Origin: Roseiflexaceae bacterium
GTDB lineage: Bacteria; Chloroflexota; Chloroflexia; Chloroflexales; Roseiflexaceae
DNA: 64,000 nucleotides
NCBI GenBank assembly: GCA_947474225.1
Contig: CANJHS010000002.1
Coordinates: 1-64,000 of the forward strand
Direction: 5' to 3'
Part shown: positions 53,544 to 63,393 of the stretch, one piece after another
How the letters are laid out: every line of letters begins with the position of its first letter
How positions within the stretch are numbered: position 1 is the first letter of the stretch
Program-made: the position numbers and the translations under genes
Notes under the pieces: model-generated
What the model saw: only the letters and a program-made list of their open reading frames with translations
Database searches by the model: none
Told to the model about the DNA's origin: nothing

Positions 53544-53978
53544 ATGCGTATCTCGAAGCGTGGTGAATATGGATTACGAGCATTGATTCTGTTAGCTGCG
53601 CACACGCAGAACAACGGCGTGATGCAGATTAAAACTATTGCCGCAGCAGAGCGCATCCCTGTGAAATTCCTTGAACAGATTCTGCTCGCCCTCAAAAATG
53701 CTGGCATTCTCCATAGCAAAATGGGCATCGGCGGAGGCTATTCACTTGCGAAATCCGCAAATGAAATTATGTTGGGAAAAATCATTCGAATCCTCGACGG
53801 GCCACTCGCTCCCATTCGTTGCGTGTCACAGATTGCATATGAAGCATGTAATTGCCCAGATGAAGTCACCTGTAAGCTACGTGCCGTAATGTTTGATGTG
53901 CGTACCGCAATGACCAATATACTCGACAATACCTCGTTGGCAGACATTGTTGATGGAACTTCTTCAATTACCATCTAG
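53544..53978 (+). CDS. Rrf2-family transcriptional regulator with Cys cluster
   Basis: A 144-residue winged-helix regulator. It has MRISKRGEYGLRALILLA at the N-terminus and a VKFLEQILLALKNAGILHSKMG recognition region, both classic for the family. Four Cys in the hinge (Cys93, Cys102, Cys104, Cys110) could ligate an iron-sulfur cluster, as in IscR/NsrR, or form a thiol switch as in CymR. The spacing C-x8-C-x-C-x5-C is not the exact IscR or NsrR pattern. AAGGA precedes the ATG. It shares a CTAG stop palindrome with the convergent gene. Possible targets are the nearby oxidoreductase genes or the cys genes. Confidence 0.9.
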   Translation: MRISKRGEYGLRALILLAAHTQNNGVMQIKTIAAAERIPVKFLEQILLALKNAGILHSKMGIGGGYSLAKSANEIMLGKIIRILDGPLAPIRCVSQIAYEACNCPDEVTCKLRAVMFDVRTAMTNILDNTSLADIVDGTSSITI

Positions 53979-54760
53979 CGCATTGCGTAGGCGACAATCT
54001 GTGCAACGAGTTCGGCAGCGTCGGTATTGATATAGCGGAATTGCATCGGTAGCTTGAGCTTTTCTGCGTGAATCGTAATCGCATTGGTATACGGATCGAC
54101 GCCAATAATATCGTCTACGGCAATGATAGCTGTACGACGATCCCCTTTAAAAACAATCCGCTCTGACGTGATAACTAAATCTCCTCTGGCAACTTCAACT
54201 GTTGCCGTAACCGGGACTGAATGACCACGACTAGCACCGAATCGATATGAAACTCCACGCATGATACGAAATGATACCCCACGACTTCCGCCCACGGTGT
54301 CACGTCGAATAACTTTTTCTTCATACAATCCTACTGGCTCGGACCAATAGCCGACTTCACCTGCACGAAGTTGCACACCGATATTGGCAATTGGGGCGAT
54401 GATACCTTGGCTTAGCTCATACATTTTTCGCTGGATCATCAGCGTACTCAAGATTTCGCCAACGGTGGGCGAGGTGATTTGGGTCAGTGCAACAATATCA
54501 TCTATCGTTTTCAGTTCTGCATCTGTCACCAACCCATCAGATTTGGCTGTAGAAACTGCATCCTTGAGTATGCTGGTACCAACTTCACGCACATCTTCTA
54601 CCGTGAGACCATGAGCGGAAACTTCGGCACGTAATAGCTGAATTTCGGTCGGTGTCAAAACCATATCGGCAATGCTTGTCTTAAATAAATCACGCAATGC
54701 TTCTTTTCCTTGGGAACGTCGCAAAGCATCTTTAACCGAATTAACCAGCTGTTGAAACAT
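53975..54760 (-). CDS. TerB-like helical domain plus PH-like domain protein
   Basis: A 261-residue protein that I recognise only in part. The N-terminal ~110 residues are helical and hold an acidic, TerB-like stretch (TAKSDGLVTDAELKTIDDIV), a fold linked to metal or membrane stress signalling. The C-terminal part (~135-261) is strand-rich and reads like a PH/GRAM domain (GDLVITSERIVFKG, AIIAVDDIIGVD). I chose ATG 54760 because GAGG lies 5 nt upstream. It diverges by 101 bp from the TerY-like VWA gene, and TerB-like proteins belong to the same Ter networks as TerY. It is probably a partner of the phosphorylation cluster. Confidence 0.65.
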   Translation of the reverse strand: MFQQLVNSVKDALRRSQGKEALRDLFKTSIADMVLTPTEIQLLRAEVSAHGLTVEDVREVGTSILKDAVSTAKSDGLVTDAELKTIDDIVALTQITSPTVGEILSTLMIQRKMYELSQGIIAPIANIGVQLRAGEVGYWSEPVGLYEEKVIRRDTVGGSRGVSFRIMRGVSYRFGASRGHSVPVTATVEVARGDLVITSERIVFKGDRRTAIIAVDDIIGVDPYTNAITIHAEKLKLPMQFRYINTDAAELVAQIVAYAMR

Positions 54761-54861
54761 ATGTACCTCATGACGCAATACTGCAAATATGATACCATTG
54801 CGACTATGCAACAATTCACACAAACAAAGCGTCTGTATCGCGAATCAATAAAGGAGTTGTC

Positions 54862-55518
54862 ATGACCACTATTCCAGATGTTTCGTTTGATCCGACCAAT
54901 CCCGATCCACGCTGCGCCTGTATCCTTATCCTTGATACGTCGGGGTCGATGCATGGCGACAAAATCAATCAACTCAATCAGGGTCTGATTGCATTCCGTG
55001 ATGCCCTACAGTCTGATTCTGTAGCCCAATCACGTGTCGAGATTGCTATCGTCACCTTTGGCCCTGCACAATTGGCCCAAGACTTTACGATAGCGGGCAG
55101 CTTTAATCCGCCTACTTTGACTGCCACCGGCGACACCCCACTTGGAGCAGCCCTCCAACAAGGGCTTGACATGCTTGCAATTCGCAAACAACTGTACAAA
55201 GATAATGGGACGCCATACTATCGACCGTGGGTGTTTTTGATTACCGATGGTGCGCCGACGGACGGCGATGCCTGGAAGTCAGCGGCAACCAGAATCATTG
55301 ATGAAGAAAACAAAAAAGGTGTTGCTTTCTTTGCAGTCGGCGTCGAAGGCGCGGACATGCAGGTCCTCAAACAGTTGTCGACCCGCGAGCCACTGACATT
55401 AAACGGTCTGCATTTTCGAGAAATGTTTGTGTGGCTTTCTTCGAGCCTTCAAAAAGTCTCACAATCACAACCAGGCACCCAAGTTCCGCTCGCACCGCCC
55501 ACATGGAACCAGGTCTAG
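54862..55518 (+). CDS. TerY-like VWA-domain protein (YegL-like)
   Basis: A 218-residue soluble von Willebrand A domain. A complete MIDAS metal site is present: DTSGSM (Asp25, Ser27, Ser29), Thr92 in TGDTPLG and Asp129 in LITDGAPTDG. The compact VWA fold without membrane segment matches TerY/YegL. In known TerY-P systems this protein works with a PP2C phosphatase and an atypical kinase. Both are encoded downstream on the same strand, the phosphatase being next. AAGGAG precedes the ATG. A GC-rich 12-bp hairpin separates it from the phosphatase gene. Confidence 0.88.
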   Translation: MTTIPDVSFDPTNPDPRCACILILDTSGSMHGDKINQLNQGLIAFRDALQSDSVAQSRVEIAIVTFGPAQLAQDFTIAGSFNPPTLTATGDTPLGAALQQGLDMLAIRKQLYKDNGTPYYRPWVFLITDGAPTDGDAWKSAATRIIDEENKKGVAFFAVGVEGADMQVLKQLSTREPLTLNGLHFREMFVWLSSSLQKVSQSQPGTQVPLAPPTWNQV

Positions 55519-55568: not shown

Positions 55569-56357
55569 ATGAACTGGCGCATTGCCAAGGCATCTATCGT
55601 CGGTACCGGTCATTCCAAAACACATACCCCATGCCAAGATAGTCATTATGTCATGCAACTTGGGAACCAATTGATTGTCGCCGTGTCAGACGGTCTCGGC
55701 TCGGCAGCACTCTCACACGAAGGTTCACGAATTGCATGCAGTGCATCAGTGGCGGCAGTAGCCCAATCATACGACACACAACGTGATGTGGAACTGATGC
55801 GCAACGCTCCTGCTGAAGCGCCTTTGTCACCAATGTCATATGAAATTGTGCTCACGAGCGCATTCTTTGCAGCACGTAACGCAATTGAACGTGAGGCAAC
55901 GAGGACCGCTGCAGCGCTTCGGGATTACGGCTGTACACTCCTTGTGGCAATAATATGCGACGATGGGTGGCACACGATGCACATCGGTGACGGCACCATT
56001 GTCGGGTTGTTTGCAGATCTACCTGCCAAGACGCTGAGCGTTCCCGAAAACGGCGAATTTATTAATTCCACTACCCCACTCACCAGCGACGAATACGTCA
56101 CACACATGCGCTATACACAGGGCGACGATTTGCTTGCAGGCGTCGCACTGTTATCCGATGGTGTCCAGCCGATGTGTATCAACTACCGCACTGGAGCTGC
56201 GTATGATGGGTTTTTTCGACCACTGCAAACATGGCTTGCAGGGTTGACTGAACTCTCAGGTGTAGATACATCACTCGAACAATTCCTCGACACACCCAAA
56301 ATGCGCCAAAAAAGTGACGATGACATGACGTTAGTCTTGGCTTTGCGGGTGCCGTAA
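55569..56357 (+). CDS. PP2C-type protein phosphatase (YegK/PphC-like)
   Basis: A 262-residue Mn/Mg-dependent Ser/Thr phosphatase. Metal-binding stretches are PCQDSH (Asp24), VSDGLGSA (Asp41, Gly42), HIGDGTI, LLSDGV and the final SDDDMTLVL. Shortness and the divergent middle match the phosphatase of TerY-P triads rather than the SpoIIE or PrpC types. It should reverse phosphorylation by the kinase at 58442, acting on the VWA protein, the kinase or others. AAAGGA lies 9 nt before the ATG. The first MOSC gene starts 24 bp after its stop. Confidence 0.9.
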   Translation: MNWRIAKASIVGTGHSKTHTPCQDSHYVMQLGNQLIVAVSDGLGSAALSHEGSRIACSASVAAVAQSYDTQRDVELMRNAPAEAPLSPMSYEIVLTSAFFAARNAIEREATRTAAALRDYGCTLLVAIICDDGWHTMHIGDGTIVGLFADLPAKTLSVPENGEFINSTTPLTSDEYVTHMRYTQGDDLLAGVALLSDGVQPMCINYRTGAAYDGFFRPLQTWLAGLTELSGVDTSLEQFLDTPKMRQKSDDDMTLVLALRVP

Positions 56358-56381: not shown

Positions 56382-57056
56382 ATGCAGCCAATGCATATCA
56401 TCAGCATAAATGTAGGTCAGGCACAACCACTCGATCCGTCCGATCTTACTCGCGGCACATCGGGAATATTTAAAACGCCTATTATGGCACCAGTCGAAAT
56501 AACTCAAACTGGTGTCTCGGGCGATGTCATTGTCAACACACAGAATCACGGTGGAGTCGACCAAGCAGTCTATATCTATGGCCGTCCTGACTACGATGCA
56601 TTCGAGTCGGAATTGGGATATCCGCTTGCAAACGGCATGTTCGGTGAGAATCTCACAATCGCAGGACTTGAGAGTGCACGCTTCACCATTGGAGATAGAC
56701 TAACAATTGGAGTCGTTGTACTCGAGGTTACGGCACCGCGTACACCATGTGCTTCATTAAATGCTCGCATGAAAGACAATCAATTCGTGAAACGATTTTT
56801 CGCGGTCGACCGTCCGGGGTTCTATTGTCGTGTCATCACCCCGGGATTCGTGAAGACGGGCGACACCGTTTTGTATCAGTCGTACCAACGCCCAGGCATC
56901 AGTATTGTCGAAGCGCACCAAACAATGCGTCCAGGGGTGACACATGATACAAAAACAATCCGTCGTTACCTCGCAGAGCCAATTCATCACCGGTTGCGCA
57001 CATACCTCGCCGCAGAACTCGCACACCGTGCCGAATCTGGTGAGAACCTCAGGTAA
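56382..57056 (+). CDS. MOSC-domain protein (YiiM-like), copy 1
   Basis: A 224-residue protein made almost entirely of a MOSC domain. It has GDVIVNTQNHGGVDQAVYIY, GMFGENLTI and a conserved Cys in TAPRTPCASLNARM, expected to handle sulfur or bind molybdenum cofactor. YiiM-like MOSC proteins bind molybdenum cofactor and help detoxify N-hydroxylated base analogues in E. coli. The C-terminal ~45 residues are a helical tail. AAGGA lies 12 nt before the start; another ATG at 56391 is possible. It is placed between the phosphatase and kinase genes of the TerY-P-like cluster, which is unusual. Confidence 0.88.
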   Translation: MQPMHIISINVGQAQPLDPSDLTRGTSGIFKTPIMAPVEITQTGVSGDVIVNTQNHGGVDQAVYIYGRPDYDAFESELGYPLANGMFGENLTIAGLESARFTIGDRLTIGVVVLEVTAPRTPCASLNARMKDNQFVKRFFAVDRPGFYCRVITPGFVKTGDTVLYQSYQRPGISIVEAHQTMRPGVTHDTKTIRRYLAEPIHHRLRTYLAAELAHRAESGENLR

Positions 57057-57104
57057 CCATCAGACCATAATCTGTTGCCATATCACACTATACACTGAGG
57101 GTTT

Positions 57105-57755
57105 ATGCAGGTACTAAGCGTCAACAGAGGCACTGAACTGGCAATCGCCAATGGCAAACGAACAGGAACTTCCGGTATTGACAAGATACCGACGACGCAG
57201 CGCATTGCAGTACGAACTATGGGTCTTGTCGGCGACGTTATTGTTGACACAGAAAATCATGGCGGTGTCGATCAAGCGGTCTATCTCTATGGAACGAACG
57301 ACTATGCCTGGTGGTCAAAACACCTCGGGAAGACACTTCCTCCCGGGACATTCGGTGAGAATTTGACGATTTCGCATCTTTCAAGCGCTTCCTACAACAT
57401 AGGCGATCGCTTCGCCATAGGGGATCTCTTACTGGAGGTCACCGCACCACGCATCCCCTGTGAGACACTCAATGCACGGATGAATGACGCTCAGTTTGTG
57501 AGAACCTTCCGCACGGCCGAACGGCCAGGACTATATTGCCGAGTGCTTATTCCTGGGTTTGTGCAGGTAGGTGCTGCCGTTTTATACCTTCCAGTTCTCC
57601 AACCAATCGTAACAATAATCGAAGCCTTTCGGTTTTACTTTGAACGCGAGCGTCACGACCTCCCGACGCTGCGTCGATTCCTTGCTGCTCCAATCGACAT
57701 TCGTTCACGTACTGAACTCAGTATCGAATATGAAACACTCACACGTGCTCAGTGA
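57105..57755 (+). CDS. MOSC-domain protein (YiiM-like), copy 2
   Basis: A 216-residue paralogue of the preceding MOSC protein. NHGGVDQAVYLYG, TFGENLTI and Cys in APRIPCETLNARM align directly. About half of the residues look identical by eye, so the duplication is old. It keeps all family landmarks, so both copies are probably functional. GAGGG lies 4 nt before the ATG. Two such genes side by side may use different molybdopterin- or sulfur-bearing partners. No molybdoenzyme gene is visible in the window. Confidence 0.88.
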   Translation: MQVLSVNRGTELAIANGKRTGTSGIDKIPTTQRIAVRTMGLVGDVIVDTENHGGVDQAVYLYGTNDYAWWSKHLGKTLPPGTFGENLTISHLSSASYNIGDRFAIGDLLLEVTAPRIPCETLNARMNDAQFVRTFRTAERPGLYCRVLIPGFVQVGAAVLYLPVLQPIVTIIEAFRFYFERERHDLPTLRRFLAAPIDIRSRTELSIEYETLTRAQ

Positions 57756-57846: not shown

Positions 57847-58437
57847 ATGGGCATGCTCGACGAAATACTCTCACACAATATGGAATATGTTTCCACACGT
57901 CAATACGAATCATTGCAAACAGACAAATTTCCCGATAAAGGCCTTGCGATTTTGGCGTGTATGGACGCACGGTTAGTAGAATTATTGCCGCAAGCACTGG
58001 GCATTCGCAACGGCGATGCCAAACTCATCAAAAATGCAGGCGCTTTGGTCACTGCACCGTGGGGCTCGGTTATGCGTAGTCTTTTAGTCGCCGTCTATGC
58101 ATTACGTGCCGAAGAAATCTGTGTCATCGCGCACTATGACTGCGGTATGGGCACCATCGACGCTACGGCTATTTTGGCAGAAGCGCGCAAACGTGGGATA
58201 TCCGAGGATGTCATTCGCACCCTGCGTGTGTCAGGAATCGATCTCGATGGCTTTTTGAAAGGATTTGCGAATGTCGAAGACAGTGTGCGCAATACGTGTA
58301 CGATTGTCCGACAACATCCGTTGCTCCCCCGCGATGTGCCGGTGCATGGCTTGATTATGGATCCGTCTACAGGGCGACTCGATACCATTGTCAATGGCTA
58401 TGTCGTGATGAACGCAGAGAAGCAGGACGAAGCATAA
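57847..58437 (+). CDS. Beta-carbonic anhydrase (beta-CA)-like protein
   Basis: A 196-residue zinc enzyme that interconverts CO2 and bicarbonate. The zinc ligands and catalytic pair are there: Cys38 and Asp40 in ACMDAR (with Arg42), and His96 and Cys99 in HYDCGM. NAGALVTAPW is the usual substrate loop. It is a short form, like the mycobacterial and plant-type beta-CAs, without a signal peptide. AAGGA lies 10 nt before ATG 57847. The kinase gene begins only 4 bp after its stop, so the two are coupled; a regulatory or CO2-sensing link to the kinase is possible but unproven. Confidence 0.9.
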   Translation: MGMLDEILSHNMEYVSTRQYESLQTDKFPDKGLAILACMDARLVELLPQALGIRNGDAKLIKNAGALVTAPWGSVMRSLLVAVYALRAEEICVIAHYDCGMGTIDATAILAEARKRGISEDVIRTLRVSGIDLDGFLKGFANVEDSVRNTCTIVRQHPLLPRDVPVHGLIMDPSTGRLDTIVNGYVVMNAEKQDEA

Positions 58438-58441
58438 CACG

Positions 58442-61150
58442 ATGACACGCTATACCACCGCAACCAATACCACACTTAACACGACGAAAAAACTCGGCGA
58501 AGGCGGAGAAGGTGCGGTATTTGATATTGCTGGTCAAAGTGGCCTTGTCGCAAAAATCTATCACCCGGCACGACTAAATGCGTCGCTTGCAGCCAAAGTC
58601 ATCGCGATGACCCGGAATCCTCCCGAAGATGCCACGCGCAAATCACTCAATCATGTTTCGATTGCCTGGCCCATCGACGTACTCTACAACGGCACGCAGT
58701 TCGTCGGCTATACCATGCCCAAGATCAAGAAATCTGATGATCTGTATGACCTGCTTCAACCGCAACAGCGTGCAAAAGAACACAGCGGACTGAACCATCG
58801 TCACCTCTATCGTACGGCCCGCAATCTTGCGTTAGCCATGGATGCCATCCATCAAAAAGGCTATGTGATCGGTGATGTAAATTTCAAGAATGCACTTTTC
58901 AATGACGACGCACTTATTACCATGGTCGACTGCGATTCGATGCAAGTCACCGATGCAGCCGGGATTGTTCATCATTGTCTCGTCGGAGTACCCGAGTATA
59001 CTCCTGCAGACTTACAGGGTATGGATTTCGCTCGCGTCACACGCACACCAAACCACGATGCTTTCGGACTGGCAATCCTGATTTTTCAGTTGTTGATGCA
59101 AGGCTTTCATCCTTTTGCCGGCAAGCCGCGACCGGGGGAGAAAGACGTCGAGCAATCGCATATCTACTGCATTAGTAAGGGAATTTTTCCCTACCTCGCA
59201 AATCAACCCTACGAACCACCACGGGCTGCACCATCGATGCTCTGTCTGCCCGTGTTGATCCAGCAACAATTCGAGCGCGCATTCACGAAACCAGACGCAC
59301 GACCTACACCCAAAGAATGGGCCAATCTCCTCGCCATGGTCGAACCACGGCTCATACCATGCCCGAATGATGCCTCACACTGGTATCCGAGCGATGGCCA
59401 TTGTGTAATCTGCGAGATTGACTACAACGTCGGTCGGCGGCAACGAACGAGCCCGAAACCGAGTACCACCGTACAGATGCAGGTGCCGCTGCCACCACAA
59501 CCGAGCATGACAACGGGGCCGCTACGTCCTGCGGCGATTTCGAGACCTGTCGTCAACACACCACAATCTCGCCCGTCGACGCAACCTGTAGCACAACCAC
59601 CGCGACCAGCGCCTGCGACACCGCGACCGACGCCGCCTGCGTCTCCAACGACAGCAGTTGCCCCTGCGGCACAAAGCCTTCCCGTCGCACCACCACGATC
59701 ATCGCAGAACTTGCCACCGTTGGTCAGTCCGCAATCTGCGCCACGCGTGGTCCCACCAAAACCGCAACCACGACAACCGCAGGTCGACTTGCTTGCGCAG
59801 ATTACAACCTTTATCAGCGCACACCGAATCGTGCTAGTGCCGATTGCTGTCATCGTACTTGCACTGGTAATGGTGCTTTCGTCTACCTGGACTGGACAGA
59901 GTAGCCCCGTGCCCGACATATCAATCGCTACGCTGCCCGATGCTACAGCCACGGAGATTATTGTCCCTACTGACAAACCTGCTGCCACCGTTGAAACCAA
60001 ACTGACTGTTGCCCCTGCGCTATCATGTAGTTCTGCCGCCATCATCGATGCCCACTGGCCGATGGTACCAGCAGACATCCGCACCGCCATGCATGCAAAA
60101 CCACTCACCACAACAACCCGACCGTACGATTCACCCGTTCTTAATCTCGTCGGCACTTTCACTGCGGCATCACCCAGCACACGCTTTGCCGAACTCGCAG
60201 CGACATGCCAGAAAGGAATCTTGCTGCAGAGCAATCCGTTAGCGTATACAACTGGTGATCACCAACGAACAGAACGAACATGTGTGCGTCCTGGGTGCGA
60301 GATAGTTACACCCGAATACCGAGTAGTGTTCATTCGGAACGCAGTCAATGATAACGACAACAAAGAACAGTCCGGCACTTTTGATATTCTTTTTCATTTT
60401 TTTGACCGACCAAATCCGCTAGGCATTAAAAACGTAGGATTTTTGGCGGATGCTTCGGCGGGAAAAAAATCGCTTGCGCTCCATTTACTTCCCTTTATAC
60501 AGTCTCGCATTTTGATAATGAAAGTCGGCAACCCGATCTGGCAGAATGCACGCAACGGGACAGAAACAACGATGGTCGATGTTGCTAGCGGTGAACAATA
60601 CTATGACGAAAAATCCGGGATAACTCGTGCACCAGCAGACTTGAAACTCACGCAGTTCTCGCGCGTGATTGCGCTTCCTGATCAACGCTGGTCAGATGGT
60701 TCTCAAGTCACCGCAGCTGATTATGTCAAAGGATTTACAGCGAATCTGAATGAAAGTAGTGTGTTGATTACACAGGTAGAAGCAGCGGGCCCAAAACAAA
60801 TTGTTATCCGCTACATTGCTGGGCTTCCACAAGTCCTCGCTGATGTCATCGCCCCACTCGCACTCCACGGGGAAGATATACTCGATGACAGCATGGGCAG
60901 CTGGGCGGTGGAACGCAATGGAATGTCGATGACCGTCGCACACACCTCCGACCCACGAAAGTCATTTACGGTTACTTCACTGACCCAAGTGCAACAAATG
61001 GTCTCTGGACTCCGTAAGGGTATCTATGATGTCGCAATAACGGAACCGGAGCAGAGCCCCGCGCTCCTCGAAGCGCTTGTTGGTGTCGACATGGGTCAAT
61101 ACACCATTCGTCTTGTCCCAACAGGAACACTGTGGGTACTACAACAGTAA
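58442..61150 (+). CDS. Transmembrane atypical Ser/Thr kinase (YegI/TerY-P type) with SBP-like outer domain
   Basis: A 902-residue protein. Residues ~15-300 are a divergent kinase domain: glycine loop GEGGEGAV (19-26), Lys38 in VAKIY, catalytic loop GDVNFKN (Asp145, Asn150) and VDCDS (Asp163) in place of DFG. A Cys/His knuckle follows (Cys307 to Cys324: CPNDASHWYPSDGHCVIC). These features match the HHH/TerY-C-linked kinases of COG4248. Residues ~335-455 are a Pro/Thr-rich linker and ~462-481 a transmembrane helix. The outer part (~490-902) contains RWSDGSQVTAADYVKGF, a signature of family 5 peptide-binding proteins. The layout predicts a ligand-sensing kinase. A TerY-P kinase with such an outer domain is unusual to me. 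Confidence 0.88.
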   Translation: MTRYTTATNTTLNTTKKLGEGGEGAVFDIAGQSGLVAKIYHPARLNASLAAKVIAMTRNPPEDATRKSLNHVSIAWPIDVLYNGTQFVGYTMPKIKKSDDLYDLLQPQQRAKEHSGLNHRHLYRTARNLALAMDAIHQKGYVIGDVNFKNALFNDDALITMVDCDSMQVTDAAGIVHHCLVGVPEYTPADLQGMDFARVTRTPNHDAFGLAILIFQLLMQGFHPFAGKPRPGEKDVEQSHIYCISKGIFPYLANQPYEPPRAAPSMLCLPVLIQQQFERAFTKPDARPTPKEWANLLAMVEPRLIPCPNDASHWYPSDGHCVICEIDYNVGRRQRTSPKPSTTVQMQVPLPPQPSMTTGPLRPAAISRPVVNTPQSRPSTQPVAQPPRPAPATPRPTPPASPTTAVAPAAQSLPVAPPRSSQNLPPLVSPQSAPRVVPPKPQPRQPQVDLLAQITTFISAHRIVLVPIAVIVLALVMVLSSTWTGQSSPVPDISIATLPDATATEIIVPTDKPAATVETKLTVAPALSCSSAAIIDAHWPMVPADIRTAMHAKPLTTTTRPYDSPVLNLVGTFTAASPSTRFAELAATCQKGILLQSNPLAYTTGDHQRTERTCVRPGCEIVTPEYRVVFIRNAVNDNDNKEQSGTFDILFHFFDRPNPLGIKNVGFLADASAGKKSLALHLLPFIQSRILIMKVGNPIWQNARNGTETTMVDVASGEQYYDEKSGITRAPADLKLTQFSRVIALPDQRWSDGSQVTAADYVKGFTANLNESSVLITQVEAAGPKQIVIRYIAGLPQVLADVIAPLALHGEDILDDSMGSWAVERNGMSMTVAHTSDPRKSFTVTSLTQVQQMVSGLRKGIYDVAITEPEQSPALLEALVGVDMGQYTIRLVPTGTLWVLQQ

Positions 61151-61161
61151 GGGAACCGCTC

Positions 61162-62331
61162 ATGCGTCGTACTTCAATACTCTATGCGTTGGTGATTAGC
61201 TTATTCATTATGTCATGTGGAACCATTTCGCGTCTCGCCGAAAATTCCATTCCGACCCCACAAACTATCGTTATCACCGCAACACCAGACCAGACGATCA
61301 CCGACATAGCGACAAACGAACCTGTTGCGAATCCAGAACCAACCGTTGCCTCGGAGGTGGGTGAATCGACACTTGTGGCTGTGCAAGCGCGGGGAATGCT
61401 ACGCTGTGGCGTGAATGCAGACCTTCCAGGGTTCGGCCTCTATGATGCAGTACGCAAACGCTGGAGTGGGTTTGATGTGGACTTCTGCAAAGTCATTGCT
61501 GCTGCAGTCCTTGGCGACCCCAGTAAGGTGGAATATATCCCTGTGACGACAGCAGATGGCCCGAACGAACGATTAAACGCCGTCCGAACCAAACTTATTG
61601 ATGTATTGATTCGCAATACGACGTGGACTGCCACCCGCGATGGTTCGCAACTCATGTTTGCGCCGACGACATTTCATGATGGTCAGACATTTATGGTGCG
61701 TGTCGATAGCGGGATTACAAAACTCGCAGATTTAAAGGGCAAACGCATCTGCGCGGCTAGCGGGACAACGACGGTGATGAATGTCCGAGATGACTTTGCT
61801 GCCCGTGATATCCCGTTCGATTTAATCGAAATTGACGGCGAAAAACTCTATAGCAGTTATGCTGATGGGCTGTGTGATGCGGTCACCAGCGATAGCAGTC
61901 AACTCGCAGTGCAACGGATCAATCTCAAAAATCCAGAACAGCACGTCGTGCTCGGCGACCGTATCTCGCGTGAACCGCTCGGTCCCGTTGTCGCCGAAGG
62001 AGACGACCAGTGGTACGACATTGTCAGCTGGAGTGTGTATGCAACCATGTATGCCGAAGAATTACGTGTCGATCGATCAAATGTTGACGAGGCGATTGCT
62101 TCGAGTACCGATCCGCGTGTCCTGCGCTTGTTGGGTGTCGATGGCAAAATCGGCAGCCAGTTCGGTCTCTCACCGGACTTTGCATACCAGATTATTTCGA
62201 AAGTGGGGAACTACGGGGATATCTACAATGATAATCTCGGTCCAGATACGACATTCAACATCGACCGCGGGCCCAACAAAGCATGGAATTTAGGTGGTGG
62301 TGGCGTCCTCGCATCGCCGCCATTCCGCTAA
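61162..62331 (+). CDS. Family 3 amino-acid-binding lipoprotein without transporter genes
   Basis: A 389-residue lipoprotein with lipobox IMSCG (Cys19) and a Pro/Thr-rich spacer to about residue 75. A type 2 periplasmic-binding domain of the amino acid (AapJ/GltI-like) family follows: VQARGMLRCGVNADLPGFG, WSGFDVDFCKVIAAAVLGD, VRTKLIDVLIRNTTWT and the DLKGKRICAASGTTT stretch. I chose ATG 61162 with AAGGGA 8 nt upstream. It is co-transcribed with the kinase 11 bp before it. No permease or ATPase gene is nearby, so it may serve as a sensor or ligand-delivery partner for the kinase rather than uptake. Confidence 0.88.
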   Translation: MRRTSILYALVISLFIMSCGTISRLAENSIPTPQTIVITATPDQTITDIATNEPVANPEPTVASEVGESTLVAVQARGMLRCGVNADLPGFGLYDAVRKRWSGFDVDFCKVIAAAVLGDPSKVEYIPVTTADGPNERLNAVRTKLIDVLIRNTTWTATRDGSQLMFAPTTFHDGQTFMVRVDSGITKLADLKGKRICAASGTTTVMNVRDDFAARDIPFDLIEIDGEKLYSSYADGLCDAVTSDSSQLAVQRINLKNPEQHVVLGDRISREPLGPVVAEGDDQWYDIVSWSVYATMYAEELRVDRSNVDEAIASSTDPRVLRLLGVDGKIGSQFGLSPDFAYQIISKVGNYGDIYNDNLGPDTTFNIDRGPNKAWNLGGGGVLASPPFR

Positions 62332-62457: not shown

Positions 62458-63393
62458 CTACAAACTCGTGTTCACGTCTGCATAATGCTCGACAAGAGCA
62501 CGAATATGCTCTGGCGTAGTGCGACAGCATCCGCCAATAATGCGTGCGCCTGCGGCAACCCATGTGGCAGCGGCACTGACATAGTCATCGGTCGTCACGG
62601 TACCAGACCAAGTTTTGGAGGTCGCATCGTAGGACTCACCTGAATTCGGGTAGGCAATAATGGCTTTGTCTGTGTGTGCTGCATACCGACGCACAATTTC
62701 GGGTACGAACTGGGGAGCAGTGCAATTCACTCCGAGCGCCACAACACATGCATGCATGTTCATCGCAGCAGCCACTGCTTCGATCGATTGCCCGGCGTTT
62801 GTGGTTGCTCCATCACGACAACTCATCGACATCCAACACGTCATACCTGGAAACCTACTGACACAGTCAGCTAATACCTCCGCTTCAATCAAATCGGGGA
62901 TGGTCTCACAGGCAAGGATATCAACACCTGCGCCGACGAGAGTCTCGATCCGCTGCATATGGAATGCGGTAAGTTCAGCAGTGTTGAGACCATAATTGCC
63001 GCGATATTCAGCACCATCAGCGGTATAGGCACCATAGGGTCCGACAGAACCCGCAATCAACGGCAATGACTTTCCTGAAGGTGAATCCGCCGCCCAGGAA
63101 GACCGCGTTTCACGAGCAATATCAACGGATGCACGTATAGCAGTAAGTGCTTCTGCAGCGGTATATCCGTGTTGCGTATAGCCAGGAACGGTTGCCTGAT
63201 AACTCGCGGTGATGAGGATTTGCGCACCAGCATTGAGGTAATCCCGGTGTACTCGGGCGATACGGTGTGGTTCACTCAACAGATACCGCGCAGACCAGAG
63301 CGGGTGCTGCAAGTCAGCACCATGACGTTCAAGTTCTGTCGCCAGAGCACCGTCAATTATCACAACAGCATTTTGATTGAGGAGATGGTGCAT
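62458..63393 (-). CDS. mmuM: Homocysteine S-methyltransferase
   Basis: A 311-residue zinc methyltransferase (MmuM/BHMT group) that makes methionine from homocysteine and a donor such as S-methylmethionine. DGALATELERHG at the start, ACETIPDLIEA in the middle and the zinc Cys ligands in GVNCTAP and IIGGCCRTTP are all intact. The length is typical of MmuM. GAAGGGA lies 6 nt before ATG 63393. It stands alone on the minus strand and diverges from cysD by 126 bp, in which both promoters must lie. It complements metF and cysK elsewhere in the window. Confidence 0.94.
   Translation of the reverse strand: MHHLLNQNAVVIIDGALATELERHGADLQHPLWSARYLLSEPHRIARVHRDYLNAGAQILITASYQATVPGYTQHGYTAAEALTAIRASVDIARETRSSWAADSPSGKSLPLIAGSVGPYGAYTADGAEYRGNYGLNTAELTAFHMQRIETLVGAGVDILACETIPDLIEAEVLADCVSRFPGMTCWMSMSCRDGATTNAGQSIEAVAAAMNMHACVVALGVNCTAPQFVPEIVRRYAAHTDKAIIAYPNSGESYDATSKTWSGTVTTDDYVSAAATWVAAGARIIGGCCRTTPEHIRALVEHYADVNTSL

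Follow-up and report, generated by a model that had tools for sequence, protein, structure and literature searches.

A transmembrane YegI-type kinase of Roseiflexaceae carries one lobe of a family 5 binding protein and possibly pairs with an adjacent amino-acid-binding lipoprotein

The kinase gene and its neighbours

The window analysed (64,000 nucleotides of contig CANJHS010000002.1, from a Roseiflexaceae bacterium) contains a genuine ORF at 58442-61150 (+) that codes for a 902-aa YegI-type membrane kinase with full-length orthologs in the same genus. Complete orthologs had open frames of 889-918 aa. Truncation of the ORF by a frameshift was rejected because all six other orthologs stop at the same point. 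The kinase domain spans residues 14-300 (58481-59341, +), and its match to Pfam Pkinase (4.2e-06) was below the curated cut-off. The ortholog alignment revealed that K38, D145, N150 and D163 are invariant; the HRD motif is replaced by IGD, and DFG by DCD. Because these four residues are invariant, the kinase may be active despite IGD and DCD. The domain is followed by a Cys/His knuckle (residues 307-324; 59360-59413, +), in which C307, H313, C321 and C324 were invariant in five orthologs, and by a Pro-rich linker (residues 335-450; 59444-59791, +) evident in the sequence and in the alignment of seven orthologs. The kinase domain and the knuckle, which lies inside the alignment, showed 34% identity to Escherichia coli YegI over 336 aa (E 5e-47). 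These findings agree with a preliminary description of the locus, which had called the kinase atypical and the knuckle retained.

Hydropathy analysis revealed a single transmembrane helix at residues 463-481 (59828-59884, +), one strong hydrophobic segment with a mean hydropathy of 2.96, where the preliminary description had placed a helix at about residue 470. The charge pattern suggests that the kinase is inside and the C-terminus outside. The outer part after the helix comprises ~420 residues, up to residue 902. The contrast formerly drawn with soluble kinases of this type did not hold. In E. coli YegI, which is known as a membrane-bound protein (PMC13232886), two hydrophobic segments follow the kinase domain, and similar kinases in Planctomycetes, Burkholderiales and other groups also have such segments; the membrane segment by itself is thus not unusual. 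In one relative (L046; G007:C339, 4199-4294, -), a stop codon was found within the matched stretch of the kinase tail, near the contig end, and reflects either an assembly error or an altered C-terminus.

Upstream of the kinase gene lie genes for a vWA protein (YegL/TerY-like; 54862-55518, +; Pfam VWA 5.5e-11) and a PP2C phosphatase (PphC/YegK-like; 55569-56357, +; Pfam PP2C_2 6.6e-43), both conserved in position. A divergent neighbour encodes a TerB-like protein (53975-54823, -; Pfam TerB 2.9e-4, below the cut-off), also conserved in position. A β-carbonic anhydrase gene (57847-58437, +; Pfam Pro_CA 2.5e-14) ends four bases 5′ of the kinase gene and lies directly upstream of it in relatives; it is as constant a neighbour of the kinase as the SBP family 3 (SBP_3) gene that follows. 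The PP2C and carbonic anhydrase genes enclose two tandem genes for MOSC-like proteins (56382-57755), where relatives have one or none. The order kept in the genus is oxidoreductase, Rrf2, TerB-like (opposite strand), vWA, PP2C, usually MOSC, carbonic anhydrase, kinase and SBP_3, followed by a relative of the gene at 62458-63393 on the other strand. Similarity over both the kinase domain and the knuckle, with vWA and PP2C genes close by, places the protein in the YegI type. The predicted anatomy, a YegI-like Ser/Thr kinase anchored in the membrane and encoded as part of a YegL(vWA)-PphC(PP2C)-YegI(kinase) set, is well supported.

The outer domain and its relation to family 5 binding proteins

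Nine of 11 genomes of one Roseiflexaceae genus have the outer part, namely the window's genome and 8 of the 10 others; it was not found in any other of 60 relatives. The genus has two other kinase types, one with a shorter outer part (type 2) and one with RCC1 repeats. The outer part of the type-2 paralogs has approximately the first 67 and last 48 residues in common with that of the kinase studied here. The RCC1 type is also a YegI-type kinase, the third in this genus. It has a long Pro-rich part and RCC1-like repeats (L042:1320-5480 and L043:4759-9015); it likewise sits behind vWA and PP2C genes, and one copy is present elsewhere in the window's genome (G000:C55).

The preliminary description had read ~410 outer residues as a family 5 substrate-binding protein (SBP_5) on the basis of a signature motif. 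The motif is present (RWSDGSQVTAADYVKGF, residues 749-765; 60686-60736, +), and its W, Y and F were invariant in seven orthologs. Single-sequence searches of the outer domain against Pfam and NCBIfam and a profile search of PDB sequences gave nothing significant. The direct Pfam match to SBP_bac_5 (PF00496) was at chance level (E 0.13-0.14 over 25 residues), occurred in only one of the seven orthologs, and reached 11.6-11.7 bits against a gathering cut-off of 32.4. Profile-profile comparison gave a different result. When the seven outer domains were aligned with SBP_5 proteins of the same order by hhalign, the probability was 95.2 (score 70.7, 169 columns), and the two outer-domain values were 95.2 and 95.6. 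In 100 column shuffles of the SBP part, the maximal score was 22.8 and the maximal probability 1.0; in a 60-shuffle set the maximal score was 26.4, the reversed profile scored 15.4, and no shuffle exceeded a probability of 2.8. The other half of SBP_5 gave a probability of only 0.4-0.6 against the outer domain.

Comparison of predicted structures agreed with this independent profile result. The AlphaFold model of the window protein (pLDDT 59) had 29 Foldseek matches at E<1e-3 and the model of an ortholog (pLDDT 71.6) had 35, all of them to SBP_5-fold proteins. In VIA-align, model residues ~143-394 fell on chain residues ~1-250 of SBP_5 proteins of ~500 residues. The first model reached a Z-score of 7.4 (rmsd 3.9, 184 aligned) and the ortholog model 7.2 with a larger rmsd; Z-scores of 6-7.4 are modest. 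A few gyrase/topoisomerase rows also appeared for the ortholog model, but a single family made up most of the top rows. The SBP_5 resemblance is thus real but remote; it is above chance and limited to residues ~657-902 and to the first half of the fold.

The outer domain can accordingly be divided into two subdomains. Subdomain B (residues 657-902; 60410-61147, +) corresponds to the first SBP_5 lobe without the second. Subdomain A (residues 529-656; 60026-60409, +) has its first part in common with the type-2 paralogs (hhalign A2N, probability 96) and showed no similarity to either SBP_5 half (probability 0.0-0.2). The earlier reading therefore stood for residues ~657-902, and failed for the ~130 residues before lobe 1. 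The aligned stretch (chain residues ~1-250) corresponds to domains I and II, one lobe, of OppA and DppA. In those proteins the ligand lies between the lobe of domains I and II and domain III. Lobe 2, the equivalent of domain III, was absent in all seven orthologs; the protein stops at the equivalent of chain residue ~250. Profile and fold evidence both indicate lobe-1 homology, and no two-lobed fold was predicted. The refuting test named in the preliminary description thus had a divided outcome: a significant direct Pfam match and two lobes were both lacking, yet the relationship to a single lobe is genuine. Because the second lobe is missing, the outer domain is, as modelled, not a complete ligand-closing clam-shell, and the one-protein sensor with a binding-protein domain formerly proposed was not supported in that form.

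A modified version of that idea is that the outer domain itself binds a ligand, with residues 529-656 standing in for the second lobe and closing on the SBP_5 lobe. Subdomain A directly precedes lobe 1, long strands are predicted at model residues 106-119 and 378-392, and Cys pairs are conserved, all of which would suit such an arrangement. However, residues 529-656 resemble neither SBP_5 half, and the type-2 paralogs retain the start of subdomain A without the WSDG part; the two are thus not an obligate closing pair. We consider this version unlikely. Subdomain A as a permuted lobe 2 was rejected, since profile comparison gave no match.

It is still less probable that the outer domain is an SBP remnant in decay that senses nothing, with a kinase that operates from inside only. 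Its rapid divergence (25-46% identity) and the shorter form in the type-2 paralogs would be expected of decay. However, dN/dS of the outer domain was about 0.16-0.19 in close pairs, a value of purifying selection that argues against decay, as do the invariant Cys, Trp and Pro positions and the frames kept open in complete orthologs.

A half-SBP outer domain might also dock on a peptide ABC transporter, at its permease, and inform the kinase of transport activity. SBP lobes contact the permease, and the genome encodes several SBP_5 proteins, at least one of which is followed by genes resembling peptide permeases and ATPases. Among the conserved neighbours of the kinase in the genus, however, no peptide permease gene was found, and we regard permease docking as improbable.

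A circularly permuted SBP_5 was observed in the same order (L133:5305-7239, -, = G000:C60; orthologs L096-L118). Its lobe-2 part (profile 201-354) comes ahead of its lobe-1 part (17-208). It is conserved in 24 genomes of the order and adjoins genes resembling peptide ABC permeases and ATPases; its carriers include the genus studied here and many of the Roseiflexaceae and Chloroflexaceae-like genomes tested. We found no description of it in the open-access papers searched. The end of its second half coincides with that of the outer lobe of the kinase. Derivation of the kinase lobe from this protein was not favoured, given a profile score of 54.7 versus 61.7 and 69.2 for SBP_5 proteins of natural order.

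The adjacent SBP_3 lipoprotein and a possible two-protein sensor

Eleven bases after the kinase stop codon begins a gene for an AapJ-like SBP_3 lipoprotein (61162-62331, +; Pfam SBP_bac_3 3.7e-11), the sole copy of such a protein in the window's genome. In every genus member with sequence beyond the kinase on its contig, it lies directly 3′ of the kinase gene, at a distance of about 30 bases or less; in G005, where the contig ends, the kinase N-terminus was present and the SBP_3 gene was not found. The closest solved structures were the amino-acid-binding protein 4z9n (4.5e-74) and the Mycobacterium tuberculosis sensor GlnH, 6h1u (2.5e-18). The Arg of TWTxxRDG and the Asp of TSDSSQL align with AapJ proteins of transporters. 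No cognate permease accompanies it. A polar-amino-acid permease (TIGR01726) above the cut-off was found in none of the 11 genus genomes, several of which are incomplete assemblies, versus 14 of 16 genomes from the rest of the order.

Roseiflexus and relatives have two homologs, a transporter AapJ beside permeases (46-51% identity) and a solitary ortholog (about 60%). No permease or YegI-type kinase was found near the solitary orthologs in other genera (58-62%), and a search for the kinase-SBP_3 pairing in other genera gave none. The lipoprotein was therefore probably an orphan before it joined the kinase locus. Since its orthologs elsewhere stand alone, without a YegI-type kinase, it has another history and perhaps another role. 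The solitary AapJ-like proteins of several genera (L154:7952-9238, L155:8895-10496, L156:1623-2849, L157:8855-10270 and L158:7307-8578) are distinct from the transporter AapJ and adjoin an M20 peptidase gene in at least two genera.

In our view the best explanation of the locus, at a probability of about 0.5, is that the membrane kinase with its half-SBP outer domain and the SBP_3 lipoprotein form a two-protein amino-acid sensor; this is more likely than a one-protein sensor. Because the second lobe needed to close over a peptide is missing, the remaining lobe is most likely no longer a ligand trap and would serve as a docking or relay surface. The most likely partner is the AapJ-like lipoprotein encoded by the next gene, which has no matching transporter in the genus. 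The data show the architecture, the membrane segment, the homology of the outer part to one SBP_5 lobe, the conserved gene order, the lack of a cognate permease and purifying selection; docking, the amino-acid signal, the direction of switching, kinase activity and substrates are inferred. In the proposed mechanism, an extracellular amino acid would close the SBP_3 lipoprotein, and the closed form would bind (or release) the outer domain of the kinase. The signal would pass through the single helix to the kinase, perhaps by a changed dimer state. The PP2C phosphatase would undo phosphorylation, and the vWA protein would act as a scaffold. A more specific proposal is tentative: a transmembrane YegI-type kinase, coupled to a vWA/PP2C switch, would use half a peptide-binding protein as the receptor on which a freed amino-acid-binding lipoprotein docks.

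Gene adjacency is no proof of contact between the SBP_3 protein and the kinase. Identity of the SBP_3 protein was 74-92%, versus 25-46% for the outer domain; this combination of slow and fast divergence counts against docking, as it is unlike that predicted for a tight, conserved interface. If the two-protein reading is true, a binding-protein lobe that once trapped a ligand has come to receive another binding protein, and its retention without the partner lobe would represent a route from transport to signalling. For YegI-type kinases and the vWA/PP2C proteins that accompany them, the conserved neighbouring amino-acid-binding lipoprotein points to a concrete candidate signal. We found no description of this architecture in the open-access papers searched.

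Comparison with known systems

The outer domain has the first lobe, including the WSDG segment, in common with SBP family 5 (OppA, DppA, NikA; PF00496). It differs in lacking the second lobe and the C-terminal return segment, and in being joined to a membrane kinase. LpqW (2grv), which was among the structural matches, also has the SBP_5 fold; unlike the outer domain, it has the complete fold and no kinase. LpqW is a regulator, not part of a transporter.

E. coli YegI resembles the present kinase in its kinase domain, its knuckle and the presence of hydrophobic segments after the kinase domain, and yegL and pphC (yegK) beside yegI match the vWA and PP2C genes found here. In contrast, the sequence of YegI runs on into what reads as coiled-coil and helix-hairpin-helix, without an SBP-like outer domain. 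A study that cites Rajagopalan and Dworkin describes YegI as dephosphorylated by PphC, and states that no condition promoting yegI and pphC expression has been defined (PMC13232886).

The TerY-P triad (vWA, PP2C and a kinase with a zinc ribbon; PMC11090510) is likewise a three-gene set, and a TerB-like neighbour is present here. The kinase in the window differs in being transmembrane with an outer domain. TerY-P kinases have a zinc-ribbon C-terminus; here the Cys/His knuckle follows the kinase domain, yet nearly 580 residues lie beyond it. An anti-phage reading of the locus is disfavoured by weak PADLOC matches (6.8e-4 for the vWA protein against the TerY model) and by the lack of a nuclease or restriction gene among the neighbours examined.

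In the GlnH-GlnX-PknG system of Actinobacteria (PMC6069109, PMC9769921), an SBP_3 lipoprotein is likewise encoded with a Ser/Thr kinase and has no tie to a transporter. The SBP_3 protein described here has GlnH as a significant homolog. GlnH binds Asp/Glu/Asn, and its signal is proposed to reach PknG by way of GlnX (PMC6069109). The present locus has the SBP_3 gene beside a kinase gene without a cognate permease; it has neither a separate membrane protein like GlnX, with its predicted four-helix bundles, nor a soluble kinase of the PknG type, which is another kinase type. The proposed mechanism resembles that of GlnH-GlnX-PknG, but the locus is not a member of that system because kinase class and membrane topology differ. 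If the proposal is true, it would be a second kinase-linked SBP_3 sensor, outside Actinobacteria.
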